Assembly: GCA_030374765.1 (NCBI GenBank)
Contig: JARGXX010000086.1
Location: 496,001 to 560,000 of the forward strand
Source of the DNA: Agarophyton chilense
Lineage: Eukaryota > Rhodophyta > Florideophyceae > Gracilariales > Gracilariaceae
Length of the DNA: 64,000 nt
Direction: 5' to 3'
Every line of letters starts with the position of its first letter. Position 1 is the stretch's first letter. This document shows, piece after piece, positions 1 to 48,166 of this stretch. The notes beneath the pieces were generated by a model. That model was not told where the DNA came from, made no database searches, and worked only from the letters and a program-made list of their open reading frames with translations. The translations under genes were made by a program, and so were the position numbers.

Positions 1-219
1 CCACGGAGCTCTCCGGAGAATCGTCACATTTGGACGCGGGTCTAACCCGAAGAGTTCGTCGTAACTGGGCCAGGTGTCCTCCGCAGGAATGATGTGGCTT
101 GAAGCTTCAACGGGACCCCGGGATCGGCTCGGCGCGGTTGACGAGGCACTCCCTCGCGGAAGAGGAGCCGAATGGAAACCGGAGAAGTAACCCCGGCGGG
201 GATTGTTACCACCGTTCAT
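1..219 (-). CDS. Antisense accessory ORF of element A (N-terminal part)
   Basis: An open minus-strand frame runs from an ATG at 217-219 to the window edge (73 codons). It is nearly the same as the start of the antisense ORF in element B, sharing MNGGNNPRRGYFSGFHSAPL and later AEDTWPSYDELFGL. Transcription would oppose the element's gag-pol. Its position just inside the 3' LTR matches the copies in B, D and F2. Function is unknown; no named domain is recognised. The C-terminus lies outside the window, so its state cannot be judged. Confidence 0.7.
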   Translation of the reverse strand, partial: MNGGNNPRRGYFSGFHSAPLPRGSASSTAPSRSRGPVEASSHIIPAEDTWPSYDELFGLDPRPNVTILRRAPW

Positions 220-14297: not shown

Positions 14298-14476
14298 ACT
14301 CAAGAAGTTTACTCAAGAAGTGACATCAAATTATTCAGTCTCCATGAGGATGGAACCTAACCAGAGTTGACCTACTTCAAATGTTGCGCCAATATGGCGC
14401 GCAATCGCCCAATACTGGTAACTCCCTCTGGGATAAGAATACCCTTAAAGGTCAAGAAGTGACCAATATCTATAGC

Positions 14477-16172
14477 TCACGGATCCGCCGTTGCGACAAT
14501 GCCCTCTTCCATGGACCGATACGCAAGTGCGTTACCTGATTCCAGAGCTTCGACCACCTCTTCTCCCTGAGCTGACGGGTCCATCTCCTCATCATTTTCC
14601 AACATGAGATGATCCAGATCAACTCGAGGTATGTAATCGTCAACTTTGATGTAGCCTCCGGGGTGATTCGCGGGAATTACACGCGGAGCGCCTCGAATAC
14701 TCTCAGCCTGAGCTCGGGAACATAACACGCCTTCGTAAGGATCCTAATACACGAATTCACCTGCGTGAGCACTTCGGCGGCCTGGCGCACGATCAGTTCG
14801 GCTATGCTGACATCCAGCTCGCTGTTCATATGGAACGCCGTCCCACTTCACGCTGTCAAGAATTTCGAGAATGTACTGGAACTCTTGTTGGTTACAAGCA
14901 TTCTATAGGGGGATGGTAAGGTCCAATTCCTGGATGTGTGCTCGCATTCTCTATGGGATATACAGTATCGTACATTGGCCGTATGCCCCCTTTACTAGAA
15001 AGGCCGCAATACGGGCTACCCACTCAGTGGCAAACACCCACTAATACTAACTATAAGGGGTTGCGATCATTCTGGAACCTATTTAGGTCAAGCACGAAGG
15101 GAGTTCTACGTAGAACCCTCCTGGGACTTTGCATAGGCGCCACCACCGGGGAATGGGAACATAACGTCCTTGATGAAATTGCGCACTGATGCGCTCTGCT
15201 TCTAAGTTTTGGTAGAGTATCAGATGCCCGAAAGACAAAAGCGCTTTCCGTTCAAATCAGACCATTGGCAGGACGCTCTGCCTTGGGGGACGCAGTAAGT
15301 CACGGAATTCTGCGTGCAGAAGAGGTCTCTCCCAACACAGTGGTTCGTTGGCAACGACCGGTCGGAACATGCCGTCGAACCTCGCTACATTCCCTGTTAG
15401 CGCAGCCAAGTTGGCACCGTATGACTCATGGCGCGCGTGCGGAAATGCGCAACATCAAAGCCGTAGAACACGGGAATTGAAGTTTGCACTGAAGTGTTCA
15501 ACATGCGTTCGTAAGCGCGACGCGCCATCCCGCTCCAGGCTTGGTCCATCGTTTCAGGGAATGCAACCCGCAGATGTCCCGACGGGATCGCCACGCTGTT
15601 ACGCCAGTCCCAGGATTAGATTATCGTCACAGTGATATCTTCCGAGGGCCATCCGTCTTCGGCACATGCGTTAAATAGTTCGGTATCATTCACCGCCACT
15701 GGGTGGAACCATGGTGCACGAGAATTTTAGACGCAAGTCCTGAGAAGGATCGCGCTCGACCAACACATCGCGCGGAACCCAAAAGGGTATAGATGTGATC
15801 TCACGGATTGGTACGGACATGTTACAAGCACTGCCGTCCATTGAGGAAGACCAACTTTGGGTAGGTTGCTGCTGTGGTAACAGCACGGACCGAAAACCGG
15901 TAAAGAGCTATGCACCCGCGGATGAGGATGCAGCACCCACAGTGTTTCTCGCACCGGAGATAGACGGTTGTGTATGGTTACTCTTGTCGGGGAATTGGAG
16001 GTTGATTGACGTGATGATTGTCCGACATCGAAATATCCGTAGTCGGAACACTTTGAAGACTTGGAGAGTTGAGAAAAGGATATATTGGTAAGCTCGCCTT
16101 GGAGAAAGGTAAGGACTCGAGGGAAATCTCGGATGGAAGGTCACTCGAGATAGAACGCTCGGACCCTACCAT
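14477..16172 (-). pseudogene. Antisense accessory ORF remnant of F2
   Basis: The minus strand between chromodomain and 3' LTR holds pieces matching the antisense ORF of element B in the same order. Examples are APWFHPVAVNDTEL (B: APWFHPTAIFDEEL), PVFYGFDVAHFRTR (B: PDEFGFDLWMHRTQ), GRYVPIPRWW (B: GRYVPLPGWW) and YVELPS (B: YVELPP). It is broken many times and is the third family member in the window. Function is unknown. That the match survives in such an old copy shows the gene is ancient in this lineage. Confidence 0.68.
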
Positions 16173-19281: not shown

Positions 19282-20167
19282 TGTAGGACAACGCTTGGAG
19301 CGGAGACACCACGAAGATGTTCGAGATCTTCCTCTCTTGAGAGACACGCCTCAGGCGGAGGAAACGCCTCCCAGCGGAGCACAGAAACAGAGCCACTCTG
19401 GAAAGGCACGACGAAGTCGAGTGTAAGACCGAGGCCAATCCGGCGGGATATACCTAGAGTGTTTAGGTGAGCATGGCACAGTCCGGGGTGTGACCAATCC
19501 TATGCGGAGCGGTACCACGGCGATTGTCGGAAAAGGAGCGAGGAAACACTCGTATGAGGTGGACGAGCGGGGTGAGTGGTGCAGCCACTCACGAGAGCCA
19601 AAAAGGAGAACCAGAGGAAAACGGGGGCGAAACCCTATACACAGGCGAGACTACGACAAGTGTCGGCGAATAAATATGAACCCACGGTGGTGGTAGCACT
19701 CTGATCGACATAGGGGTGGATGAACTAACGTGCGACGGGCGCTCACGCAGTCTGCGGTGAAGACGCGCTGAAGGCGAAGAGTTCAGAGCCAAGACTCCCT
19801 TCTAGGTCTCCCAAGAGGGTCTTTACTGGGGAGCAGTGCTCAACCTCCTAAGTAGTGTGGCGCGCGGCCCCTGACAGTGGGCGCGCGCCCGAAAAATAGA
19901 CACGAAATAACGATAGCGTAGCCAAATAAATACTAAGAATTACTAAATAATACTAACCATTAGGTAGAATCCGGGCCACGTGTGGCACGCCTCGTATTCG
20001 AGCGTTGGCATCCGTGCATTCCACGTGTTCCATCCGTGTGCACTTCCGGTCCTAACCGGCCGTCAGCACGCAATAGCGGTATAGCTTGTCATAAACCAAG
20101 CTAGTCCTCAAGAAAGCGAACTCTGTAAGTCCTGCGAAGAAATCTCCTTGAAGGGCATTGTCTTTCA
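19282..20167 (-). repeat. 3' LTR of element B
   Basis: 886 bp. In plus coordinates it runs from TGTAGGACAACG to GTCTTTCA. On the element's strand it starts TGAAAGACA, right after the purine tract at 20168-20180 (AAGGAGGGGGATA). Flanked on the left by target duplication AAAGC. Confidence 0.92.
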
Positions 20168-20406
20168 TATCCCCCTCCTTAGGTGGCGAACACGCCGTCT
20201 ACATGGGGGGGAGGCAACGTTCTAACCGGCATAAAAGCGAGCCGCGTAACGCGTCCAGCGAGCACTCGACTATCGAAGGCAGAGCTGCACAACCGAACGA
20301 CAAACGCACTAACGCGGTAACCACTCTTTGAACTTCGAGCGCGCTTTTGCATCGTACACTAACCTCTAGCAATTGCATTCCGATACCTCAGCGACCAGTA
20401 CTCCCG

Positions 20407-22092
20407 ATGAACGGTGGTAACAATCCCCGACGGGGTTACTTCTCCGGTTTCCATTCGGCTCCTCTTCCGCGGGGGAGTGCCTCGTCAATCTCGCCGAGGC
20501 GATCCCGGGGTCCCGTTGAAGCTTCAAGCCACATCATTCCTGCGGAGGACACCTGGCCCAGTTACGACGAACTCTTTGGGTTAAACCCGCGTCAACATGC
20601 GACGATTCTCCGGAGAGCTCCGTGGTTCCATCCGACAGCGATCTTCGACGAAGAACTCGTGGAGTCGTATGCTGATGGCAATGCGTGTCTCCCGGGCGAG
20701 CTTGCGGCTTTGATCACCACTTCGTGGAACTGGCGACGCCGTGTGGCGGTTCCCATTCACGCGACTATGCGGCGAAGACGCAAGTCGGCGGAAGAGGCGC
20801 ATTGTACCTTCGTCCGCATCGGCTACTCACGGATGAACCGGGCGAACTTCCAATACCCCATCCCCGACGAATTCGGCTTCGACCTATGGATGCACCGGAC
20901 TCAAGTTGAGATCGGCTTTTGTGACCGCCTTGCGGTGTTGGAAACTTACGCATGGTGCGGTCAACCGCGAGCGCGTCAAGAACCGATCTGCTGGGTCCGT
21001 CCGATCCTTCGTGCCGAGTTCCGTCACCTTCGTCGTGAGTCCCGATATCGGTGGTTACAGAACTTCATCCGCGAGGAGCGTCAGGGCAGATCCCGCTTTG
21101 GGTTCCTTGTCTCTTATCAGAACACGGAGATAAACCGGATTAGTCCCTTCTACCAGTTCGGGCGATACGTTCCCCTGCCTGGGTGGTGGTTCTCCGTCGA
21201 CGTGTGCCGGGGATGTTACGTGGAGTTGCCTCCAGTCGTCTCCTATCTGGGCTCGTACCTCATCAAGGATCCGCACTCCGGCTTATGGTTCGTGGTCCTA
21301 ACCGAATGGGCAGTCCGCGCCGCGGCGTACATCTTGTGAGAAGCCTACAACCAGTATCAACTGTGGTATCTTCCTCCGCGTTTGCGTGGTTACATCCGGC
21401 AGCTGGACCTTCAACTCTTCGTTGGAGGTGTCAATAACGCTGATGAAGCTCAGGAGCTCATCGACATCATTGGGCGTGTCGATTGGGCTGTCGTGCCTGT
21501 CCGGCAGAGCGGCCGTGGTCAAGAAGGCGGTGGGGCTGATCGGTCTCCGGGGCGTTGCAAGCTGTTGGCTGGAGATTTAATCTTCTTTAACGCATGGGAG
21601 CAGCAAGAGATCTCCGAGGCGAAGGTGTCGGCACTCTGGATGGCTCCACGAGGCATACCATACGGGCATTCCGTGGGGTTTGTCAACTCGGATGACTTCT
21701 ACTACGCTTATGGCGGTGATAATCTCCCGGAGGAGGCGGGCGAATACCGTGGCGACGAGGTCATGGAAGACGTGGGAGACCCCAATGGTGCCGATACTAC
21801 GGCGCGGCGGGCGCAGGGAGCGACTCACGCAGGTGCGGTGGTCGATCCAGTGGCGGCGGCGTTGCCGGGCGACGCGGAATTCATTGATGTTCCCATACGC
21901 CCAGAGGCGGTCGTGATCTCCAAATTCCGTCGGGGTGTTGGACTGAACGCGCAAGCGGCGAGCGGCGACATCGGTGCGATGAGAGACGCCCTCGCGGCAC
22001 GCCTGGCCGGCGGGAGTAACCACTCTAGCGATTCGGGGTGGCGCGCACGGCAATCCGGGTTCTTCCAACTAACCCCTTGTGATCTTGGTTAG
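20407..22092 (+). pseudogene. Antisense accessory ORF of element B
   Basis: It runs against gag-pol, in the gap between chromodomain and 3' LTR. The first ATG is at 20407; a TTG further upstream also keeps the frame. The N-terminal third is charged, with RRRRKSAEEA. The core has GRYVPLPGWW, YVELPPVVSYLGSY and VVLTEWAVRAAAYIL, and matches element D's PLPSWW, EIPPVVVYRGSY and VLRTEWACSMARHLI. The C-terminal part is acidic and then Ala/Gly-rich. The region is open over two long stretches with about one break. Its 3' end lies 192 bp from the convergent chromodomain end. Function is unknown; no membrane segment or known domain is seen. Confidence 0.72.
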
Positions 22093-27811: not shown

Positions 27812-28153
27812 TGTTAAAACACTGGTCAGTGGTTGAAAAGGTGAATCCTCGTGACGGCCGAGGTGAGAGTCGGCCGGTCGACCAGGGTTTATATAGACTA
27901 TTGAACCTTCGAAGAAGAGTTCATACAGAGTGTTTTCTAATGTACCATTCTAATTGGGTGCCGTGTGAAACATGGTTGCTTCCACGAGGTTCAATCGTGC
28001 ATGCGTGTCCCATGCCTCGTTGTCACTTGTTCGATGATGCTGACAGTGACAGCTTTGTTGATTGTGACAAGAATGGCATTTAAAGCATAGTACAACTAAA
28101 TCATAACATAAATGCATAACATAATTGATTAAAAATCATCTGAATTCCTAACA
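27812..28153 (-). repeat. 3' LTR of element C
   Basis: 342 bp, from TGTTAAAACACTGG to GAATTCCTAACA in plus coordinates. This is the uninterrupted copy; its CGTGACGGCCGAGG shows the single GACGG that was duplicated in the other LTR by element D. The element's purine tract (GGGGGAAGTGA on the minus strand) abuts it at 28154. Confidence 0.93.
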
Positions 28154-28804
28154 TCACTTCCCCCATGAAAGAGAGTCGTCCCGACTCGTCAGTGGTTCAG
28201 TGTTCCATTGGGGACGGCGTTCAGTTCTGGTATACCAGGAGGATTTCGGGAAAATCAACATATCAGACCTTGGTTCGAATTCCATTGAAAAGACTACATC
28301 AGGATTATCCTCGATTTGTAGTATAGATGATTCAACGGCATTGAGAAACGTATCTTCAGGATCGGCACTTAAATGTCCATATTGCGAGACTATAAATGTG
28401 AATAGGAAGAGAATGAACTGCTCGTCTATGGACTCCAGAATCCCATTGTCGTAAACCTTGAACAACTTTTGGAGTATATCGGCCTTTTCTTCGGTTAGGA
28501 ACGGGCAACGAAGTTGAAGAAACGCGTAGCAAATATGACAAGAAACCCAAGCTAAACAGAACTTCACTAGAATTTCATCAGATATATCTTCAAACCAAAG
28601 AAGCATGCGCCTTCCGCCAAGCCAAATTCGGCTGTAGAAAGAAGATGCGGCATCAGTCTGAAGAGCTTGAGTCGGATTTGGAACATGATTATCGGTCATA
28701 TTGGTAGGGGTTTGATGACGGTAGAACGGAATGGAACGGGGGTACGGTGAAGTTCGGCAAGGGTGTGGTGTGGATGTGGTGAGAGTGTGGTGACTGGGCC
28801 CCAA
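28154..28804 (-). CDS. Extra ORF downstream of pol in element C
   Basis: A 216-codon frame in the same direction as pol starts 6 bases beyond the pol stop side and ends with its stop codon at the LTR border, so it codes through the polypurine tract (its last residues are SLSWGK). A better start may be the Met of MTDNHVPN, about residue 36. The middle has a hydrophobic/Cys block (FCLAWVSCHICYAFLQLRC, about residues 81-99) and an Asp/Glu-rich C-terminal half. No known domain, signal peptide or clear membrane span. An env-like position alone is not evidence of envelope function. It looks whole. Confidence 0.6.
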   Translation of the reverse strand: MGPSHHTLTTSTPHPCRTSPYPRSIPFYRHQTPTNMTDNHVPNPTQALQTDAASSFYSRIWLGGRRMLLWFEDISDEILVKFCLAWVSCHICYAFLQLRCPFLTEEKADILQKLFKVYDNGILESIDEQFILFLFTFIVSQYGHLSADPEDTFLNAVESSILQIEDNPDVVFSMEFEPRSDMLIFPKSSWYTRTERRPQWNTEPLTSRDDSLSWGK

Positions 28805-34593: not shown

Positions 34594-34639
34594 TGTTAGA
34601 ACACTGGTCAGTGGTTGAAAAGGTGAATCCTCGTGACGG
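34594..34639 (-). repeat. 5' LTR of element C, left piece
   Basis: 46 bp from TGTTAGAACACTGG to GTGACGG, split from the rest of the LTR by element D. Its last five bases GACGG are the target duplication. Together with 45285-45580 it makes 342 bp, exactly the length of the other C LTR. Confidence 0.93.
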
Positions 34640-35818
34640 TGTGACGCAACGCGCCGGGCCCTTATTGAGGACAAGTAGCCACCCTCCTCCGACCTCCTTA
34701 CACTAAGCAGTGACGACGCCGTAATAACTGGCACACTGCCAGGATGGAATACCGTGCATGGCGCCAGGTGTCATACGTGTGGCAATGGCCGGCAGCTAGT
34801 TCGTGTGGTTGGCACCACACAGTGCTCTGCACTGCGGCCTTGTAATTTTTAATTGTATTTATTAGTTGTAATCTATCGTAATGGCTAACTGCTAAGCGGC
34901 CGGCGGTACTTGAGCGCCGGGTCGCCGAGGGCTAGACCGAAGTAAAGTCGAGGACAGGAGAGACGCCTCCGAACTACTAGTTCGTGTCTTGAGACTATAG
35001 GGTTATCAGACCTTCGTTCCCAGTCGACGCTGACAAGACAGGCAGCAGTCTGATCAACTGCTGCAGAGGTATCTCTCGCATTTTAGCCTATCGAGAATTC
35101 CCCGTCCAGTCCTTGCCCTCACGGCCATCGGTCGCCGCGTGGCGCATTGCACTTTCGCTCGGTCTATTGGACCGCTGGCAGTTCTACTGCCCGAGCAGAT
35201 TGTAGACCCGTATCCGTTGGATACCGAGGTGGGGATCGGGAGCCTCGGATAAGTGAGTATCACTTCCAGGTGCAGCTGGTAAAGCCAGGCAGGCGCATTC
35301 GTCTGGGCGCTGGTTCAATCCCAGGGCTTGCCCTGCTTTGCTATCGTCACCCGTTGGGTGTGAGTGATTACCACTTTGTGGCGCCAGTCGGCATAGCCAA
35401 GCAGACGCTCTCGTCTGAGCGCTGATATAATCTCAGGGCTTGCCCTGCTTTGTTATCGCCACCCGTTGGGGGAAGTGGTTGGTGCGTTGTTGCCGACGTT
35501 AGGGTCGTGGCGCTCGTCCGGGCTCTGGTACAATCCCGGGGCTCGCCCCGGCTACTCGTCATACGCGGCGTATATCCAGGCCGATCACTTCGGTTCGTGT
35601 CGTATCGACACCACTCCGAGCACGTCTTCCGGACGCCAAGAGCTCCTGTGGAACGATAGGAGTCTGTGTCTAGTCGACACTCCTCGCCTGTGAGACGACG
35701 CCTCTCTTGAGTCGTTGCGGACTCTAGAGCGAGATAGCCGACCCCGGCTTTCCAGGCTCTGCCTGTGCGTAGCTCTCGCCGCCCACGGCTGGTCTTCCGA
35801 GTAGCGCATTGCGTTACA
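34640..35818 (+). repeat. 5' LTR of element D
   Basis: 1179 bp, TGTGACGCAACG...GCATTGCGTTACA. The ends form a near-perfect inverted repeat (TGTGACGCA against TGCGTTACA). The downstream half contains a triplicated unit, listed separately. Confidence 0.95.
35283..35565 (+). repeat. Three related units inside the D LTR
   Basis: Units start at about 35283, 35395 and 35500 (112, about 105 and at least 65 bp). Each has GCGCTGGTTCAATCCCAGG or a close variant, followed by GCTTGCCCTGC or GCTCGCCCCGGC. The first two are longer and share a TTATCG/CTATCG CCACCCGTTGGG block. The word GGTTCAATCCC looks like a tRNA B box. The other LTR (about 44744-45026) has the same three. Confidence 0.7.
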
Positions 35819-35922: not shown

Positions 35923-38241
35923 ATGAGCACCCGATCAGGTGCTTCCTTCAGGCGTTCGACTTCGAACGACAATCAGTCCGTTTCGGTCAATGGTCGAGAG
36001 GCTAGTTCTATAAAGAACAACGCCTCAGCACTCAGCGGAAGTCAACCCCCGAAACTTTTCCGAGTTGCCCAGTTAGCCCACGGCCCGAAGCCCGGGGAGG
36101 CGCAGTCAGCGAATGCGAGAGATGCTGCCTCCTCACCCTCCCCAGTCGTGGAAGAACCTTCTTCCTCCGGACCTGCAGGTCCTAGTGTGCCAGTGAACAC
36201 ACCATCGGTAGCTCTTGCTACCTCGCCTAGGGTGGAGTTCACTCCCCTTCCCTTACCGAGGCTGGACTCCCCAGTGAAACAGTCTACGACGACTGATACC
36301 GTTCGTCCCAGTAAGGTGTTTCCCCCTGAAAAAGGTCTTCATGCCCCACCCTCGGGAGGAATTCCCATCAACGTGGATGAAACTCCATTCCCAAGACTTC
36401 CAATGGACGTAGTACCGGTGCAAGTCCGACAGCTCGTCGTTGCAGAGGTCGTAGACCTCGTGCCCAGGCTCGTGACCCAGCAGATTAACGAGGCTGAGCG
36501 GAGTTGAAGGGAATCCCTCGAAGCTCGACTCGCCGAACTAACTGTAAAGGTTGTAGGTGAAGTGCAAGCTGCGCTGCAACAACGCCTTCAATCTTTTCTT
36601 GCGGTCGAAATTCCCCGCCAGGTGTTGCATGCCACACAACGAGGAGGTTTCACTTCTAATGGACAGGAGCTCCAGGGGCTGGAGACTCGAATTGTCAACC
36701 TGGACAAGAAGGTCGAGGACCTAGAGTTCCAACGAGCTGCCCTGCAAGGCCAGGTGGCATTCCTTATGAAGCATGGTACTTCTCCATCAGAAGGTGAGGT
36801 TCCCTCACACAAGCCCAGGGCTTCCAGAGCCAAGCAAGAGCGCAAACGATCTAAGGTGAAGCGCAAATCCGGTTCGGAATTTTCGTCCACGGATGATATA
36901 TCATCCTCGAGCTCAGAGTCCGGTGTGGACTTGCGGAAGCATAATCTCGCAGAGATTAACCCTGCTAATAGCCGATTCAAGAAAGTCTTGTCGTACAAGA
37001 CATATCGGTTAGATAATCGGGCAACAAGCGAGAGCTCGAAAGTTAAGCGACGTGTCGCTTCTATGGTCAAGCGGTTCAATACCACCATGGCGAACCGTCG
37101 GTTCGACGGAGCAGATCCTATGTCAGTCCTGACCTTTTTATCGGCGTTCAAACGCGAGGCCAATAACAACGGAATCTCCGAAGGTATGGCAAAGTTAGTA
37201 CTCCCGTACTTCCTGACGGGTAATGCCCGTATAGCGTACGACAGTGCTTTGCACGTGGACGCGATTGACGATTCCTCCACGGGAATCAAGTCATGGCCAG
37301 AGGCTATCCAATGGCTGCTACGCAGCTACGCGAAGGATGAGTATATCCAGGATCTAGTACGTGATCTCCGATTACTACGCCAGAGGGCTGGTGAGACTGA
37401 GCAGTCTTTCGGACAGCGTGTCCGCCTGAAGTTCTCGAGACTTGGTGGAATTTATTCACAGGAAGAGCAAATTGCTTCCTTTATCGAAGGGCTCTTGCCC
37501 AGCGTCGCTTCGTGTGTGACACGAGACCGCCAGCTCCACCGCGATCGATTTACGACCTTGGACGCTGTGGTTGAACTGGCTATGTCTCATGGACATACGT
37601 CACGGCTGACGAGACCGCTCAGGCATCCGTTGAATGTTAAGCCGTATCAGGCTAAGGCACCGGTGATGTCACTGGAGGGTACGACCCTTTCCACCGATAC
37701 GGCTCTGAATGGCCGTAATCTTGGCGACGACGCCATACTGCATATCGGCACCGATGTAGAGGGTCCGCCTACGGACCCAAGCTACAGCTGTAGCACAACA
37801 GAGGCGGAAACCCTTCTGCAATCTGACCCGTTGGGACAGAGTGACCCCGCGCTTCCGGTAGTGTCAAACTATAACACCCGTATGGAGGAGTGGGCGCAGC
37901 CCAAGCGCGTTGGGTGGGTTGATCGAAGGCTCCAGCGGAGCCAGCATGCAACGCGACGCGAAGCTTATGGAGCTTGTTACTTATGCGCCAATCCCGACCA
38001 CGTGCTCGCTGATTGCGAGTGGATCACTCCGGCCATGCGAGCGCAGGCTCGACAGCGTATAATGGAGGCCTCTCCAGAGATAGCGGCAAGGATGCCAGCG
38101 ATGGTGTACTTCGTGGCAGGACTCACGCCTCCACGAAGAGGATACCAGGCCCTACGACCCAGCGCGGTGTCCGCGCAACCCCAGGTCCTTCGCAAGGACA
38201 ACGCGGAGCCCCAATCTGAGGGAAACGTCCCCCGGACTTAG
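35923..38241 (+). pseudogene. gag of element D
   Basis: It starts with MSTRSGASFRRSTSND, followed by a Pro/Ser-rich part, a predicted coiled coil (LETRIVNLDKKVEDLEFQRA), a basic Ser-rich stretch and a capsid-like half. That half has LSYKTYRLDNRA, LPYFLTGNARIAYDS, WPEAIQWLLRSYA and EEQIASFIEGLLP. The C-terminus has a canonical C-x2-C-x4-H-x4-C knuckle, CYLCANPDHVLADC. It builds the particle and packages RNA. Nearly whole, about one break. Confidence 0.88.
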
Positions 38242-39206: not shown

Positions 39207-40340
39207 TTGGACTCGACAGATCTCTCGGAGATCTCGCCAAAGATGCAGCGTGCCGTGAAAGAGATACTTGGTAAGCATGAAGACGTGTGGAGCGGTAAGC
39301 TTGGAGAGATTCGAGGACCTCCTCATCGGATCAAGTTGATGCCAGGGGCAACCCCTGTTCACTCGCAGCCTTATCGAGCTGGACCGAAGATTAGAGAACA
39401 CGAGTTCGCCGAAGTTAAGCGTATGCTTGATGCAGGTGTCATCGAACCAGCCAGGTCAGAGTGGGCAAGCCCAGTTGTCTTTGTTCCGAAACCCGACGGA
39501 AGCCTACGCTTCTGCGTAGATTATAGGCGCCTCAACGCCTTTACCGTGAAGGATACCTATCCCCTACCCCATATAGACGAATGTCTTGACAGCTTGGGCG
39601 AGGCCCAGTTCTTTACCACGCTAGATTGCAATAGCGGGTATTGGCAACTGTCCGTCGCGCCTGAAGATCCGGACAAAACCACGTTCACGTGTCACGCAGG
39701 GACCTATAGGTTCACTCGTATGCCCTTTGGGCTTTGCAACGCCCCAGCAACGTTCCAGAGAATCGTGGATATCCTGCAAGCAGGATTCAAATGGCAATGT
39801 CGCCTGGTGTACATTGATGATGTCATCATCTTCTCCAAAAATGCGGACGAGCACATACGACATGTGGACGAGATACTCACTGTTCTCAGAAAGGCAGGGT
39901 TAACCCTGAAGTTGAAGAAGTGTCACTTCTTTTGGAGGTCAGTAGATTAGTTTGGCCACGTAATCAAACCGGGCCTGTTGGAAGTTGCCACGAAGAACCT
40001 TGAGGCTCTCCAGAAGGCGCGACCACCTGCGACGCAGACTGAAGTTCGATCCTTTCTCGGAATGTGCAACGTCTACCGACGTTTTGTGCGAAATTTCGCG
40101 AAAGTTGCTGCACCGCTGACGGAGCTTACGAAGAAAGAGTTTTCACCTCGATTGCCGCAGCTCACAGCTGAGCAGTTAGAAGCGTTCGAAATGCTTAAGC
40201 AAGCACTGACGCACGCGCCATTGTTAAAGCTACCAAGGGCAGACCGCCCGTTTACGGTGGAGACCGATGCCAGTGCTGGCCAGATTGGTTGCGTCTTGAC
40301 GCAAGTTCATAACGAAATCGGTACGCCTCGCAGAGTATGA
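39207..40340 (+). pseudogene. Reverse transcriptase and RNase H start of element D
   Basis: RT signatures occur in order: HSQPYRAGPKIREHEFAEVK, AGVIEPARSEWASPVVFVPK, CVDYRRLNAFTVKDTYPLPH, MPFGLCNAPATFQRI and the catalytic RLVYIDDVIIFS. Then follow SFLGMCNVYRRFVRNFAKVA and the RNase H start VETDASAGQIGCVLTQ. All motifs are typical of Ty3/gypsy. The region is nearly whole, with about one or two breaks including a short RNase H. Confidence 0.88.
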
Positions 40341-40389: not shown

Positions 40390-42069
40390 TTGTCGCGCAT
40401 GCCCACAGATGGTGAGACCGCTATGAGACCTTCAGAGGACATACCCTGTTTTGTGTGTGAGCGGGAGGCTACAGGCCCGAGCATCACGTTCTGCAATGCC
40501 TCGCATCCTTGGGATGCCGCCCTCGACGTTGAAGAACATGAGCTGACGGCGGTTTCGCTAGAAGAATTGCTCGCCCAGCAAGCCACGGACTCGTTCTGTG
40601 AGGACATGAGAGAAGGATCTCTCCATGACCCCAAATGCCGTGTGTACACGGACCACGATGGACTATTAGTCTGCAAAGCTAGAATAGATCAAAGCGAGCA
40701 GATGCTCACACCAAAATCGCTAAGGGAGCGCGTGATGCATATGCATCATTACCCCCGTGTCGCAGGACACCTGGGAGGACGAAGGATGTACGCCACGATG
40801 CGTCGACGCTACTACTGGCCAAGCATGGCCGCCGATGTGTACCGTTTGGTCAACGAGTGTGACTCGTGTGTGAAGGAGAGGATTTCTCTTGTGAGAAAAA
40901 GCTCCCGATTGAAGCTGTTCCCGGCGACCGCACCGCTGGAAAGTGTCGCGATCGACATCCTGGGGCCACTTCAGACTACGAGTAGAGGTAATCGTTACTT
41001 GCTGGTGATCTGTGACCGCTTCACAAAGTTGACGAAGACCATCCCTTTGTCGAACACTGATGCGTTCGCAATTGCAAGGGCGTTCTGCACCCATTGGGTG
41101 TTTGTCTACGGACCACCCGTCACTGTCCTGTCGGACAATGGATCTAACTTCGCCTCGAAGTTCTTTCAGAGCGCTTGCCAAATCCTTGGCATCAAGAACC
41201 TCTTCACGTCCCTGTACCATCTGCAGACCAACGGTCAAGTCGAGAGGTTCAACCGAACCATGTTGTCTGCCTTGAGGCATTATGTTGCTGAGCATCAGCA
41301 CAACTGGGACCTTTACAGCGATGCGCTGACCTTTGGGTACAATACACAAGTCCATTCTAGCACCGTCCATTCCCCGTTCGAGTTGGTATTCGCTAACGCC
41401 CCGGAGCCGCTGGCTCTACAGAGACTCGGAACCCTAAAGGGGAAGGCTCCTCGCGAGATTAAGATGCAGTTTTTGACACAGCTGCGTCAACTGCTCTCGC
41501 GCGCGACCGGTGCCTTAACGAAAGCGCAGCAACGCTACAAGCAGCGGTACGATGCTCGCGTCGTTGAGAAGCGAATGCCGGAACCCGATACGTATGTGTA
41601 CCTGCGGATGCACTTAGACCCTAGGGAGCCAGAGGTTCCAGGTGAGAAGATCTCCCGTAAATTGAGACGAAAGATCGTTGGATCTTACAAGGTCATCAGC
41701 GGTGACGAGGAAAACCACACGGTTCTTATTGAGAACGAAGGAATCGAGGAGCGTCATAACTTGGACCACGTGGTCATTGGGGCGTCTAAGCCGCCAGCGG
41801 TGACGGGAGATGACGAAAGCGTCATAGACAAGATATTGGGTCATAACCAGGGAGCGGCGGAGAACCGCGAGTACAAAGTTCGGTGGCTCGGATATACAGC
41901 AGAGGAAGACACCTTCCACATCGCTGATAGCCGGCCGTGGAACCTCGTGGCTCGCTACTGCCGACGACGGAAGATCAGCGTCCCCGACCGGGATGAGATA
42001 CTTCTGCGAGCTAACCATGGCTCCACTCATGACCTAGTGGAACCCGCTGAGGCAAACTCGCAAGTGTAA
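40390..42069 (+). CDS. Integrase with chromodomain of element D
   Basis: The long open stretch of 559 codons starts in the spacer after RNase H. The zinc finger is at about residues 118-160 (HHYPRVAGHLGG ... CDSCVKER). The catalytic core is at about residues 175-300, with AIDILGPL, LSDNGSNFASKFF and QVERFNRT giving D, D and E. The C-terminus has a chromodomain-like block, DKILGHNQ, EYKVRWLGYTAEEDTFHI. It ends 107 bp short of the convergent antisense ORF. This part looks whole. Confidence 0.9.
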   Translation: MSRMPTDGETAMRPSEDIPCFVCEREATGPSITFCNASHPWDAALDVEEHELTAVSLEELLAQQATDSFCEDMREGSLHDPKCRVYTDHDGLLVCKARIDQSEQMLTPKSLRERVMHMHHYPRVAGHLGGRRMYATMRRRYYWPSMAADVYRLVNECDSCVKERISLVRKSSRLKLFPATAPLESVAIDILGPLQTTSRGNRYLLVICDRFTKLTKTIPLSNTDAFAIARAFCTHWVFVYGPPVTVLSDNGSNFASKFFQSACQILGIKNLFTSLYHLQTNGQVERFNRTMLSALRHYVAEHQHNWDLYSDALTFGYNTQVHSSTVHSPFELVFANAPEPLALQRLGTLKGKAPREIKMQFLTQLRQLLSRATGALTKAQQRYKQRYDARVVEKRMPEPDTYVYLRMHLDPREPEVPGEKISRKLRRKIVGSYKVISGDEENHTVLIENEGIEERHNLDHVVIGASKPPAVTGDDESVIDKILGHNQGAAENREYKVRWLGYTAEEDTFHIADSRPWNLVARYCRRRKISVPDRDEILLRANHGSTHDLVEPAEANSQV

Positions 42070-42175: not shown

Positions 42176-43996
42176 CTACACTTGAGATAATTCCTCCTCA
42201 CTATCTAGGAGTTCGTCCCCAGGGGCCATCGACGGCCCTGCAGGCACGGCAGTACTGCTGATATCAGGGATAGCCCCCGTAGTCGAAGTGGTTGGTGCGG
42301 CTACTGCAGCAGGTCCCGGCGTTGACGAAGGATTTTTGGCCATCCTGGCCTGGAGTTGAGCAAGGCTCGTCACTCCGTAGGCCTTGAGGGCATCCAGTAG
42401 AGCTGCAGCGGAGTTCTCTTTTGCAAGCTCACTTGGCGGTGCGGGCACCAATCGAAGTTCTGGCCGTTTAACCAACGGTTGGTCGACCATGTCGACATCC
42501 TTCGGTTCGGAGGCTAGCTTCGCTAGTTGTTGGCGACGCCATTCTGCAAGGCGTTCCGAGTTCGTCGAGTTCGACGAAGTATATACCCGGCCTACAGAGA
42601 GAGAAGCGATGAAGTCCGCCCGCGGATTCTCCACAACGAGGTTGCCTCCTTGGTCATGGATGACTAGGTATTGTTCTGGAATGTCCAAAGTCCAAAGGAT
42701 TGGGTTGAAGACAACCCAATCACAGCCGCGATGCACTGGAGTTGCTCCACCGTTGTGGGCAGGGCGCATTGCGCCACACATTCGGACGCGTGGCGTCGCA
42801 GGGAAGTCAGGAAACACCCCGTCTTTTGGAAGAGAAGACCACCAGGTCTTGTCGATAAATTCGAGTAGAGTCTCCAGACGCTTCGCTTCGGCGTTGCATC
42901 GCTCGTCATCAGCCAGATCGGGCTCGACGCCAGTGAGATTAAGATTTCTTATGTCCTTGCGTACCGGTGGAGGGATCCACCATAAGCGACCCGCGCGGGC
43001 CTCATAGATGAGATGGCGTGCCATCGAGCAGGCCCATTCAGTGCGGAGCACTGTTTGGTATCCAGGATACGTGGTGAAGTATGAGCCACGGTAGACGACT
43101 ACCGGCGGAATTTCGTTGAAGAACCCGTAGGGGACTTCAACTTCCTTCCACCACGATGGCAAAGGCCATGATATGTCGCGGATGACATCTTTCTGGAAGC
43201 AGTCGACCTCGACTCGGTGGTAGGCTACCAGAACCTGGTATTTATGGCGGCGCATGCGCTCGAATTCTCGCCAAGAATGTGGCGTGTACATCATGATTTG
43301 GTCGAGCCAAGCGTCCATCGGAGGTAGTACCCTTGCGACAAAGTCGCCTGACGCATCGCGCCTACAGGGGCCGAGGACCCAATTGGCTCCGTTGTCACGG
43401 ATGACAGTCGGAGGCAGCACCCGGAGTATTTTCGGATTCCGTAGGATGCGCTCAATCTCCTCGGCACCCATGCCGTTGTGGACTTCCTCGAAGGTGGTCA
43501 GCCAGGGAATCCCCTCAGCATCCTCGCAGAGGTACGGGAAAGGCAAGCAAAGCTTGTGAACCAGAGGGCGGTCGTCCGCCCAACTTTCAACCCTGTTCAG
43601 GAAGCTTTCGCGTAGCGTCCTCGCTACGTACGGCTCATCCGCAGGACATCGGTAGAACTCGATGTCTACCCGGCCGATGAAGTCATCGGAAATTAAGCGG
43701 CGGAACGCGGCAAGACGCGCTCGTCGTTCGATTAGCAGCTGCAAGAAGTGACGGCGACCCCACACGGTCAGCTCTGATGAAGGATGGCTAGCCATCTCTC
43801 TGAAGGTGTATGAGCGGAAGCACTCTTCGATGTCTGCGACATCTCGTAGCCATGTGGCTACTTTCGCCAGTCCTATTGGGACTTCAGGACGAGCCAAGGT
43901 TGTCTCTGAGGCCCAGCGAACCCGTTGAAGCGATCGATCGAAGAGCGGTTCACGGTGGCCATCGCGGCGGCGCTTGCAGGAATCCGTTCTTATCAT
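42176..43996 (-). CDS. Antisense accessory ORF of element D, 606 aa
   Basis: The longest continuous frame of the family runs against gag-pol from near the 3' LTR (start 92 bp before the purine tract) to 107 bp from the integrase stop. The N-terminus is basic (KRRRDG). Trp/Arg-rich blocks fill residues 60-400, including LPSWWKEVEVPYGFF, EIPPVVVYRGSY, VLRTEWACSMARHLIYEA and LWWIPPPVRKDI. Around residues 430-480 is WVVFNPILWTLDIPEQYLVI. A Pro/Ala/Thr-rich tail ends in an acidic LLDSEEELSQV. Matching motifs in elements B and F2 show it is not a chance frame. I recognise no known fold, signal peptide or membrane segment. It looks whole. Confidence 0.8.
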   Translation of the reverse strand: MIRTDSCKRRRDGHREPLFDRSLQRVRWASETTLARPEVPIGLAKVATWLRDVADIEECFRSYTFREMASHPSSELTVWGRRHFLQLLIERRARLAAFRRLISDDFIGRVDIEFYRCPADEPYVARTLRESFLNRVESWADDRPLVHKLCLPFPYLCEDAEGIPWLTTFEEVHNGMGAEEIERILRNPKILRVLPPTVIRDNGANWVLGPCRRDASGDFVARVLPPMDAWLDQIMMYTPHSWREFERMRRHKYQVLVAYHRVEVDCFQKDVIRDISWPLPSWWKEVEVPYGFFNEIPPVVVYRGSYFTTYPGYQTVLRTEWACSMARHLIYEARAGRLWWIPPPVRKDIRNLNLTGVEPDLADDERCNAEAKRLETLLEFIDKTWWSSLPKDGVFPDFPATPRVRMCGAMRPAHNGGATPVHRGCDWVVFNPILWTLDIPEQYLVIHDQGGNLVVENPRADFIASLSVGRVYTSSNSTNSERLAEWRRQQLAKLASEPKDVDMVDQPLVKRPELRLVPAPPSELAKENSAAALLDALKAYGVTSLAQLQARMAKNPSSTPGPAAVAAPTTSTTGAIPDISSTAVPAGPSMAPGDELLDSEEELSQV

Positions 43997-44100: not shown

Positions 44101-45279
44101 TGTGACGCAACGCGCCGGGCCCTTATTCAGGACAAGTAGCCACCCTCCTCCGACCTCCTTACACTAAGCAGTGACGACGCCGTAATAACTGGCACACTGC
44201 CAGGATGGAATACCGTGCATGGCGCCAGGTGTCATACGTGTGGCAATGGCCGGCAGCTAGTTCGTGTGGTTGGCACCATACAGTGCTCTGCACTGCGGCC
44301 TTGTAATTTTTAATTGTATTTATTAGTTGTAATCTATCGTAATGGCTAACTGCTAAGCGGCCGGCGGTACTTGAGCGCCGGGTCGCCGAGGGCTAGACCG
44401 AAGTAAAGTCGAGGACGGGAGAAACGCCTCCGAACTACTAGTTCGTGTCTTGAGACTATAAGGTTACCAGACCTTCGTTCCCAGTCGACGCCGACAAGAC
44501 AGGCAGCAGTCTGATCAACTGCTGCAGAGGTATCTCTCGCATTTTAGCCTATCGAGAATTCCCCGTCCAGTCCTTGCCCTCACGGCCATCGGTCGCCGCG
44601 TGGCGCATTGCACTTTCGCTCGGTCTATTGGACCGCTGGCACGTCTACTGCCCGAGCAGATTGTAGACCAGTATCCGTTGGATACCAAGGTGTGGATCGG
44701 GAGCCTCAGATAAGTGAGTATCACTTCCAGGTGCAGCTGGTAAAGCCAGGCAGGCGCATTCGTCTGGGCGCTGGTTCAATCCCAGGGCTTGCCCTGCTTT
44801 GCTATCGTCACCCGTTGGGTGTGAGTGATTACCACTTTGTGGCGCCAGTCGGCATAGCCAAGCAGACGCTCTCGTATGAGCGCTGGTACAATCTCAGGGC
44901 TTGCCCTGCTTTGTTATCGCCACCCGTTGGGGGAAGAGGTTGGTGCGTCGTTGCCGACGTTAGGGTCGTGGCGCTCGTCCGGGCTCTGGTACAATCCCGG
45001 GGCTCGCCCCGGCTACTCGTCATACGCGGCGTATATCCAGGCCGATCACTTCGGTTCGTGTCGTATCGACACCACTCCGAGCACGTCTTCCGGACGCCAA
45101 GAGCTCCTGTGGAACGATAGGAGTCTGTGTCTAGTCGACACTCCTCGCCTGTGAGACGACGCCTCTCTTGAGTCGTTGTGGACTCTAGGGCCAGATAGCC
45201 GACCCCGGCTTTCCAGGCTCTGCCTGTGCGTAGCTCTCGCCGCCCGCGGCTGGTCTCCCGAGTAGCGCATTGAGTAACA
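44101..45279 (+). repeat. 3' LTR of element D
   Basis: 1179 bp, the same length as its partner, differing at about 25 sites by eye. Followed by target duplication GACGG at 45280-45284. Any promoter of the antisense ORF would have to lie here or in the 100 bp inside it. Confidence 0.95.
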
Positions 45280-45284
45280 GACGG

Positions 45285-45580
45285 CCGAGGTGAGAGTCGA
45301 CCGGTCGACCAGGGTTTATATAGACTATTGAACCTTCGAAGAAGAGGTCATAAAGAGTGTTTTCTAATGTACCATTCTAATTGGGTGCCGTGTGAAACAT
45401 GGTTGCTTCCACGAGATTCAATCGTGCATGCGTGTCCCATGCCTCGTTGTCATTTGCTCGATGATGCTGACAGTGACAGCTTTGTTGATTGTGACAAGAA
45501 TGTCATTTAAAGCATAGTATAACTAAATCATAACATAAATGCATAACATAATTGATTTAAAATCATCGGAATTCCTTACA
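45285..45580 (-). repeat. 5' LTR of element C, right piece
   Basis: 296 bp from CCGAGGTGAGAG to GGAATTCCTTACA. It continues the 46-bp piece at 34594 across element D. Right of it is C's target duplication GAGGG. Confidence 0.93.
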
Positions 45581-47289: not shown

Positions 47290-48166
47290 TGTAGGACAAC
47301 GCTTGGAGCGGAGACACCACGAAGATGTTCGGGATCTTCCTCTCTTGGGAGACACGCCTCAGGCGTAGGAAACGCGTCCCAGCGGAGCATAGAAACAGAG
47401 CCACTCTGGAAAGGCACGACGAAGTCGGGTGTAAGACCGAGGCCAATCCGGCGGGATATACCTAGAGTGTTTAGGTGAGCACGGCACAGTCCGGGGTGTG
47501 ACCAATCCTATGCGGAGCGGTACCACGGCGATTGTCGGAAAAGGAGCGAGGAAACACTCGTATGAGGTGGACGAGCGGGGTGAGTAAGGCGGCTACTCAC
47601 GAGAGCCAAAAAGGAGAACCGGAGGAAAACGGGGGCGAAACCCTATACAGGGGCGAGACTACGACAAGTGTCGGCGAATAAATATGAACCCACGGTGGTG
47701 GTAGCACTCTGGTCGACAGAGGGATGGATGAACTAACGTGCAACGGGCGCTCACGCAGTATGCGGTGAAGACGCGCGGAAGGCGAAAATTTCAGGGCCAA
47801 GACCCCCCTTTCCTCCGATCCCCCATGAGGGTGTTTACTGTGGAGCAGTGCTCAACCTTCTATGTAGTGTGGCGCCCGGCCCCTGACAGTGGGCGCGCGC
47901 CCGAAAAATAGACACTAAATAGCGATAGCGTAGCCAAATGAATACTAAATAATACTAACCATTAGGTAGAATCAGGGCCACGTGTGGCACGCCTCGTACT
48001 CGAGCGTTGGCATCCGTGCAGTCCACGTGTTCCACCCGTGTGCACTTCCGGTCCTAACTGGCCGTCTGCACGCAATAGCGGTATAGCTTGTCATAGACCA
48101 AGCTAGTCCTCAAGCGAGCAAACTTCCTAAGTCCTGCAAAGAAACCCCCTTGAAGATTGTCCTTCA
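47290..48166 (-). repeat. 5' LTR of element B
   Basis: 877 bp, from TGTAGGACAACG to TTGTCCTTCA in plus coordinates. About 7% different from the other B LTR by eye, including small deletions. The right flank AAAGC is the target duplication. Confidence 0.92.

Follow-up and report, generated by a model that had tools for sequence, protein, structure and literature searches.

What is a 606-codon open reading frame (ORF) doing on the strand opposite gag and pol, between the integrase and the 3′ long terminal repeat (LTR) of a red-algal retrotransposon? The frame lies in an element that we call D, within a window (the whole stretch of DNA analysed) of 64,000 nucleotides from Agarophyton chilense (assembly GCA_030374765.1, contig JARGXX010000086.1, positions 496,001 to 560,000 of the forward strand). 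We conclude that it is almost certainly an inherited accessory gene of the element. The gene is antisense to pol and convergent with it in each family of elements in which it was found. The parts of element D, in window coordinates, are the following.

42176–43996, minus strand: antisense gene of element D, ATG to stop, 606 codons, intact in the window copy
34640–35818, plus strand: 5′ LTR, 1179 bp, 97.9% identical to the 3′ LTR
44101–45279, plus strand: 3′ LTR, its edge 104 bp upstream of the antisense ATG
34635–34639, no strand: left target-site duplication GACGG, consistent with the split LTR of element C
45280–45284, no strand: right target-site duplication GACGG, consistent with the split LTR of element C
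36562–38241, plus strand: gag ORF (Retrotrans_gag, 24.8 bits, cut-off 24.1)
39207–39950, plus strand: reverse transcriptase piece (RVT_1, 1e-31)
40390–42069, plus strand: integrase ORF (H2C2, rve), with a weak chromodomain match of 18.1 bits (cut-off 25.1)

Element D has the features of a Ty3/Gypsy retrotransposon, namely LTRs, a target duplication and gag, then RVT_1, H2C2 and rve in Gypsy order; in the window copy pol is divided among several ORFs. A first-pass annotation of this DNA had described a 606-codon frame running opposite to gag-pol and ending convergently 107 bp from the integrase stop. The frame and its orientation are as described, while the gap between the integrase stop (42069) and the end of the ORF measures 106 bp. 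In 200 simulated 64-kb windows (first-order Markov) the longest stop-free frame arising by chance was 396 codons (median 205) versus 606 in D, and the remaining five frames across the D antisense ORF hold 11–25 stops.

The gene occurs at the same site and on the same strand in five element families of the genome (D, L039, B, F2 and E). The D, L039 and B families include intact copies; F2 and E are represented by broken ones only. The relatives that had been proposed in window elements B, F2 and A hold up as sites, though not as intact genes: B is broken, F2 decayed and A partial.

20407–22092, plus strand: antisense gene of element B, window copy broken by an in-frame stop
14381–15723, minus strand: remains of the F2 antisense gene, with many stops
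1–219, minus strand: first part of the antisense gene in a B-family copy (A) that continues beyond the window

The B window copy reads as two ORFs (20347–21339 and 21382–22092) split by the in-frame stop, and its protein shows an 84% match, across 543 amino acids (aa), to a longer copy of the B family. F2 has 7 internal stops among the 316 codons of 14477–15424 and matches the L039 protein at 37–42% identity, in two pieces. Antisense gene and integrase are convergent at 30 of 30 fetched D loci (a count that leaves aside 4 of the 34 D places, not fetched whole), pol lies on the opposite strand and downstream of the antisense gene end at all six L039-family loci, and B and F2 in the window share this arrangement. 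The first-pass annotation had proposed to abandon the idea if other elements carried no further copies at this site; such copies were found in the D and L039 families. From the first ATG to the aligned 3′ LTR edge there are 104 bp in D, 78 bp in L039 and 239 bp in B. That these are relatives is borne out by the D core, which scores 84.3 bits against L039, 76.6 against B and 172 against P0002 (a database protein, below), versus maxima of 22.7, 25.4 and 27.3 bits, respectively, over 60 shuffles each.

Two further elements at the window served as a forward test and an outgroup. The pol of element E lies at 61–64 kb and the element ends beyond the window; the flank, fetched to test a prediction made from pol, holds a broken antisense gene that matches L039 at 33–44% in three pieces and B at 30%. 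In the pol-to-LTR region of element C, whose reverse transcriptase (RT) is only 31–40% identical to that of the other elements, none of the four antisense proteins found a match.

28154–28804, minus strand: last pol-strand ORF of element C, running up to its own LTR (27812–28153)

By RT identity, L039, B and F2 group together at 61–75%, with D (43–62%) and E (46–60%) outside. Antisense protein identities are 38–42% between L039 and B, 37–42% between L039 and F2, 38–41% between B and F2, and 27–32% from D to these three, the overall range between families being 27–44%. The pattern fits a descent of the antisense gene together with pol, as judged from identities in five families and without a tree, too few for a strong test. 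The carrier elements form a single clade of red-algal Ty3/Gypsy chromoviruses, the chromodomain having been scored in L039 (above the Pfam cut-off in 4 of 4 pieces, 35.0–36.5 bits versus 25.1) and in D (only 18.1).

Relatives also occur outside this genome. The protein P0005, deposited as ‘hypothetical protein BWQ96_03215 [Gracilariopsis chorda]’, comes from another florideophyte red alga, matches 97% of the B protein at 46% and shares its C-terminal motif; P0004 is 52% identical over 84% of the B protein. P0002 (723 aa, European Nucleotide Archive, ENA) is a relative of the D type, with 33% identity across 68% of D; it comes from elsewhere, as D copies of full length in this genome reach only 32–35% identity with it. 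About 8000 candidates were scored per protein search, and further relatives may exist. None of 140 pattern matches in viral contigs encodes a relative, and the plasmid collection gave no match.

The full-length proteins compared measure 554–723 aa (n = 4) and contain 7–11% arginine and 2–3% tryptophan. In a six-sequence alignment 35 columns are invariant, clustered at LP.WW...E...G...E.P....Y.G and then at a W-A pair. After a poorly conserved linker, all six sequences end in a C-terminal motif consisting of a hydrophobic stretch, an invariant glycine and a second hydrophobic stretch. The acidic tail claimed in the first-pass annotation is present in B and L039, weak in D (14 basic and 18 acidic residues among the last 150) and absent from P0002 (22 and 21). 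Its view that the protein is not an envelope agrees with our hydropathy profiles, the envelope test being hydropathy alone, without a signal-peptide predictor: the best 19-residue Kyte-Doolittle mean is 0.80–1.19 in the four proteins, so that none has a segment of membrane strength, for which the usual threshold is 1.6. Pfam, NCBIfam and PDB yielded no relative past chance level, and the weak matches below cut-off include none common across the family. The suggestion of a possibly undescribed family without a domain match accordingly holds for Pfam, NCBIfam, PDB and the protein databases, with PHROGs, PADLOC, metagenome and phage collections outside the search.

Has the protein been kept, or merely the DNA? 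Comparison between families bears out the former, which had been proposed from motifs common to D and B. The L039 protein aligns with that of a B copy, L047, at 38% over 531 columns (E 1.4e-120; nonsynonymous divergence, dN, 0.66; saturation at silent sites). A codon model fitted to this pair prefers constraint over a ratio of 1 by twice the log-likelihood difference (2dlnL) of 121. Corresponding values are 41.9 for D against L039 (266 codons, 27%) and 35.1 for D against B (163 codons, 30%), with 201.5 for the integrases of D and L042 (467 codons, 42%). Third codon positions differ between families at 66–69%, first and second at 41–50%. Only the antisense frame is open, the other five holding 7–27 stops in D, L039 and L047. 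Taken together, these comparisons show that the antisense protein is constrained, though it changes more rapidly than integrase and can be aligned in its core only.

Within families the picture is different. The first-pass annotation had expected a ratio of amino-acid-changing to silent changes below 1 among open copies and had counted a ratio near 1 against the gene; taken literally, the ratios are near 1. Among the D copies the ratio is 0.92 (288 changing, 129 silent; p 0.45; 27 distinct of 30 copies), falling to 0.68 (p 0.07) for changes common to at least two copies. A sample of 20 B copies, drawn by taking one row in six of 128 and adding the window copy, gave 0.94 (p 0.49), and 0.87 (p 0.39) for shared changes. 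The test has little power, however, because even integrase, in these D copies, does not fall significantly below 1 (0.82, p 0.12; shared changes 0.59, p 0.10). Young copies simply decay after insertion.

Since the protein is kept between families but not after insertion, and is apparently soluble, it would serve the spread of the element. The product could be a soluble intracellular protein built from the conserved Trp/Arg core, the poorly conserved linker and the short C-terminal motif. We predict that it is made from an mRNA of its own, whose antisense promoter would lie in the 3′ LTR or next to it, because the 78–239 bp between the first ATG and the LTR leave little room outside the LTR. 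It may then regulate in trans on behalf of the element, by tuning sense LTR transcription or by countering host silencing; by our analysis these would be the most likely tasks. The manner of action might resemble that of HBZ of human T-cell leukaemia virus type 1 (HTLV-1) or, as proposed, TRP28 of plant Retand elements, the sequences being unrelated as far as tested. For the reading as a whole, an old accessory gene with its own antisense mRNA whose product is a soluble intracellular trans regulator, we consider the case evenly balanced; that the product acts as a regulator is a tentative proposal, to which we lean rather against than for.

Several results weigh against this reading. Changes within families look neutral, and the D antisense copies carry 30 stops in 18176 codons versus 12 in 13134 for integrase, so that the gene is if anything the richer in stops and the host shows no sign of keeping it. 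Between families, synonymous divergence (dS) is saturated and the ratios mean only ‘far below 1’; the alignments were moreover protein-guided, and the antisense proteins of D and L039 align over 308 columns at 27% versus 493 at 42% for the integrases of D and L042. A mirror signal appears in one reverse frame, weaker at 4.5e-45 versus 2.4e-113, which we attribute to the keeping of first and second codon positions. The E gene was not found with the D protein or P0002 at E <= 0.01, and the F2 integrase match ends, unexplained, about 3 kb from the antisense gene. On function, nothing in the sequence points to nucleic-acid binding, and the Pfam matches below cut-off are to a phage zinc-binding family (0.04, over the D C-terminal motif) and DUF3905 (0.061). 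Two AlphaFold models were unusable, with a mean predicted local distance difference test score (pLDDT) of 31.8 and 34.0; in the L039 model a C-terminal helix pair is the sole stretch near 68.

Other explanations account for parts of these data. It is very improbable that there is no gene at all, only a chance open frame or the mirror of a sense-strand gene. Frames do stay open in GC-rich sequence, and the mirror signal is present, but 606 codons against a simulated maximum of 396, together with the constraint between families, refute it; the mirror frame itself holds 11 stops in D, 23 in L039 and 27 in L047 (allowing for different stretch length), and therefore the antisense frame is the coding one. 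The same constraint bears on the idea that the antisense transcript rather than a protein is active, forming double-stranded RNA with the sense RNA or controlling read-through at the convergent 3′ ends. The convergent layout with its short gap in D would suit such a role. A transcript, however, would not explain why third positions diverge so much more than first and second, nor why this frame stays open amid stops in the other five, and we judge it improbable.

Two alternatives accept a protein and differ on what it is for. It might be a structural, packaging or movement protein, either a particle protein or a non-classical substitute for an envelope, that happens to be antisense. The slot is that of retroviral env, as textbooks have it, and a length of 554–723 aa with a conserved core and a C-terminal motif would be in keeping; yet none of the four proteins has a hydrophobic segment of membrane-span strength, and an antisense gene needs its own mRNA, which is unusual for structural proteins, making this unlikely though worth keeping in mind. 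Alternatively, the gene might have been captured from the host or from a different mobile element, have entered an ancestor by a single insertion and now be a mere passenger. Reverse orientation suits a foreign insertion, and no relative of named function emerged from the protein searches. A passenger would hardly show constraint between families, even if weaker than in integrase, or conservation as far as another algal genus, and all 36 loci read with their flanks (30 D, 6 L039) adjoin pol, with no free host copy in that non-exhaustive search; we regard this origin as rather unlikely. The accessory gene kept for the element itself is the reading that we retain.

The genome searched comprises 79.8 Mb in 135 contigs, and all family copy counts are lower bounds. 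By DNA, the D gene is present at 34 places (94–100% identical), with a full-length stop-free frame at 6 of them. The L039 family (618 aa) has at least 71 scored matches from 1889 first-look candidates, 42 of them stop-free, a share biased towards intact copies as only the best candidates were scored. For B there are at least 128 scored matches from 1656 candidates, the query being the first 310 residues, and for F2 at least 5 places, some partial. Phycobilisome-linker genes lie on six contigs that also bear these elements (C88, C10, C68, C16, C1 and C80), and also on C39, which we take to be the plastid. Genes of this sort are markers of red algae or glaucophytes, and the rRNA likewise has a red-algal look. 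A fungal host was considered and rejected on these two grounds; Fungal_trans and hydrophobin yielded no hits either, although the controls in that search were silent as well.

Head-to-tail arrays of D-family genes at an exact 9734-bp spacing were observed on C5 (10303–51059, 5 copies) and C78 (14311–25865, 2 copies), and at 9745 bp on C7 (631157–642721, 2 copies). They look like tandem elements sharing LTRs, and could have arisen from circular forms, recombination or assembly. The LTR-to-LTR period of the window D copy, 9461 bp, falls 273 bp below that of the tandem copies and its pol is split; this copy may carry a deletion despite its intact antisense ORF. The window also appears to hold a triple nesting (19282–48166), with D within an LTR of element C and C between the LTRs of element B: the C LTR at 27812–28153 matches 34594–34639 plus 45280–45580, and the B LTRs (19282–20167 and 47290–48166) are 92% identical. 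A primer-binding-site-like sequence, TGGTCTCCCGACTTAGAA, directly after the 5′ LTR is common to D (after 35818) and the L039 family (locus L065, below 3742, minus strand). L039-family elements have near-exact 50-bp tandem repeats between integrase and chromodomain (L041, 5857–6106; L044, 5064–5164).

How does this gene compare with known systems? In the open-licence literature searched, no title or opening of an abstract dealt with antisense genes of Gypsy elements from red algae or fungi, and the word ‘antisense’ does not occur in the available portion of PMC3248453. In bdelloid rotifers, LTR elements carry an ORF3 downstream of pol that was captured more than once, as far as the accessible text of PMC5408684 goes; unlike the env, DEDDy and GDSL types given there, the red-algal protein has no such domain. 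The plant Gypsy elements Retand, Grande and RIRE2 have an antisense ORF, TRP28 (PF04195), between pol and the 3′ LTR, and in the extracts available from PMC11963269 these ORFs are common across active families, lack transmembrane features and are of unknown function, with regulation suggested by the author. The likeness to plant Tat/Grande elements drawn in the first-pass annotation stands for the slot and the strand, and extends to a Ty3/Gypsy carrier and to the lack of transmembrane features. It fails for group membership: Retand is a non-chromovirus of flowering plants according to that source, whereas the present elements live in a red alga, and the chromodomain of the L039 family scores above the Pfam cut-off. 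PF04195 matched none of 10 members of set A3 at E <= 1 and none of the four proteins at E <= 10, within HMMER filters.

The antisense protein is about three times the length of HBZ. As with HBZ (HTLV-1) and APH-2 (HTLV-2), in what is available of PMC11963269, the gene sits antisense in an LTR element, at its 3′ end, and starts near the 3′ LTR; unlike HBZ, it has no bZIP or other Pfam match, and its promoter in the 3′ LTR is here only predicted. The gene is of a known kind, but its protein forms a new family, and for this host lineage the literature searched contains no earlier report. The present description gives a name to a family now filed as ‘hypothetical protein’ and, if the reading is true, would explain part of the repeats in such genomes; D and L039 are two multi-copy, recent-looking families in which the question can be tested. 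Red-algal chromoviruses may, we suggest with some reserve and at less than even confidence, have independently evolved an antisense regulatory gene, whose product, of a new protein family, would govern expression of the element itself or block host silencing; deltaretroviruses and plant Retand would then be joined by a third case. If so, LTR elements that are unrelated, in hosts far apart, acquire antisense accessory genes beside the 3′ LTR, and this would suggest a common need, be it self-control or escape from silencing, for which a slot read backwards from the LTR is a recurrent solution.
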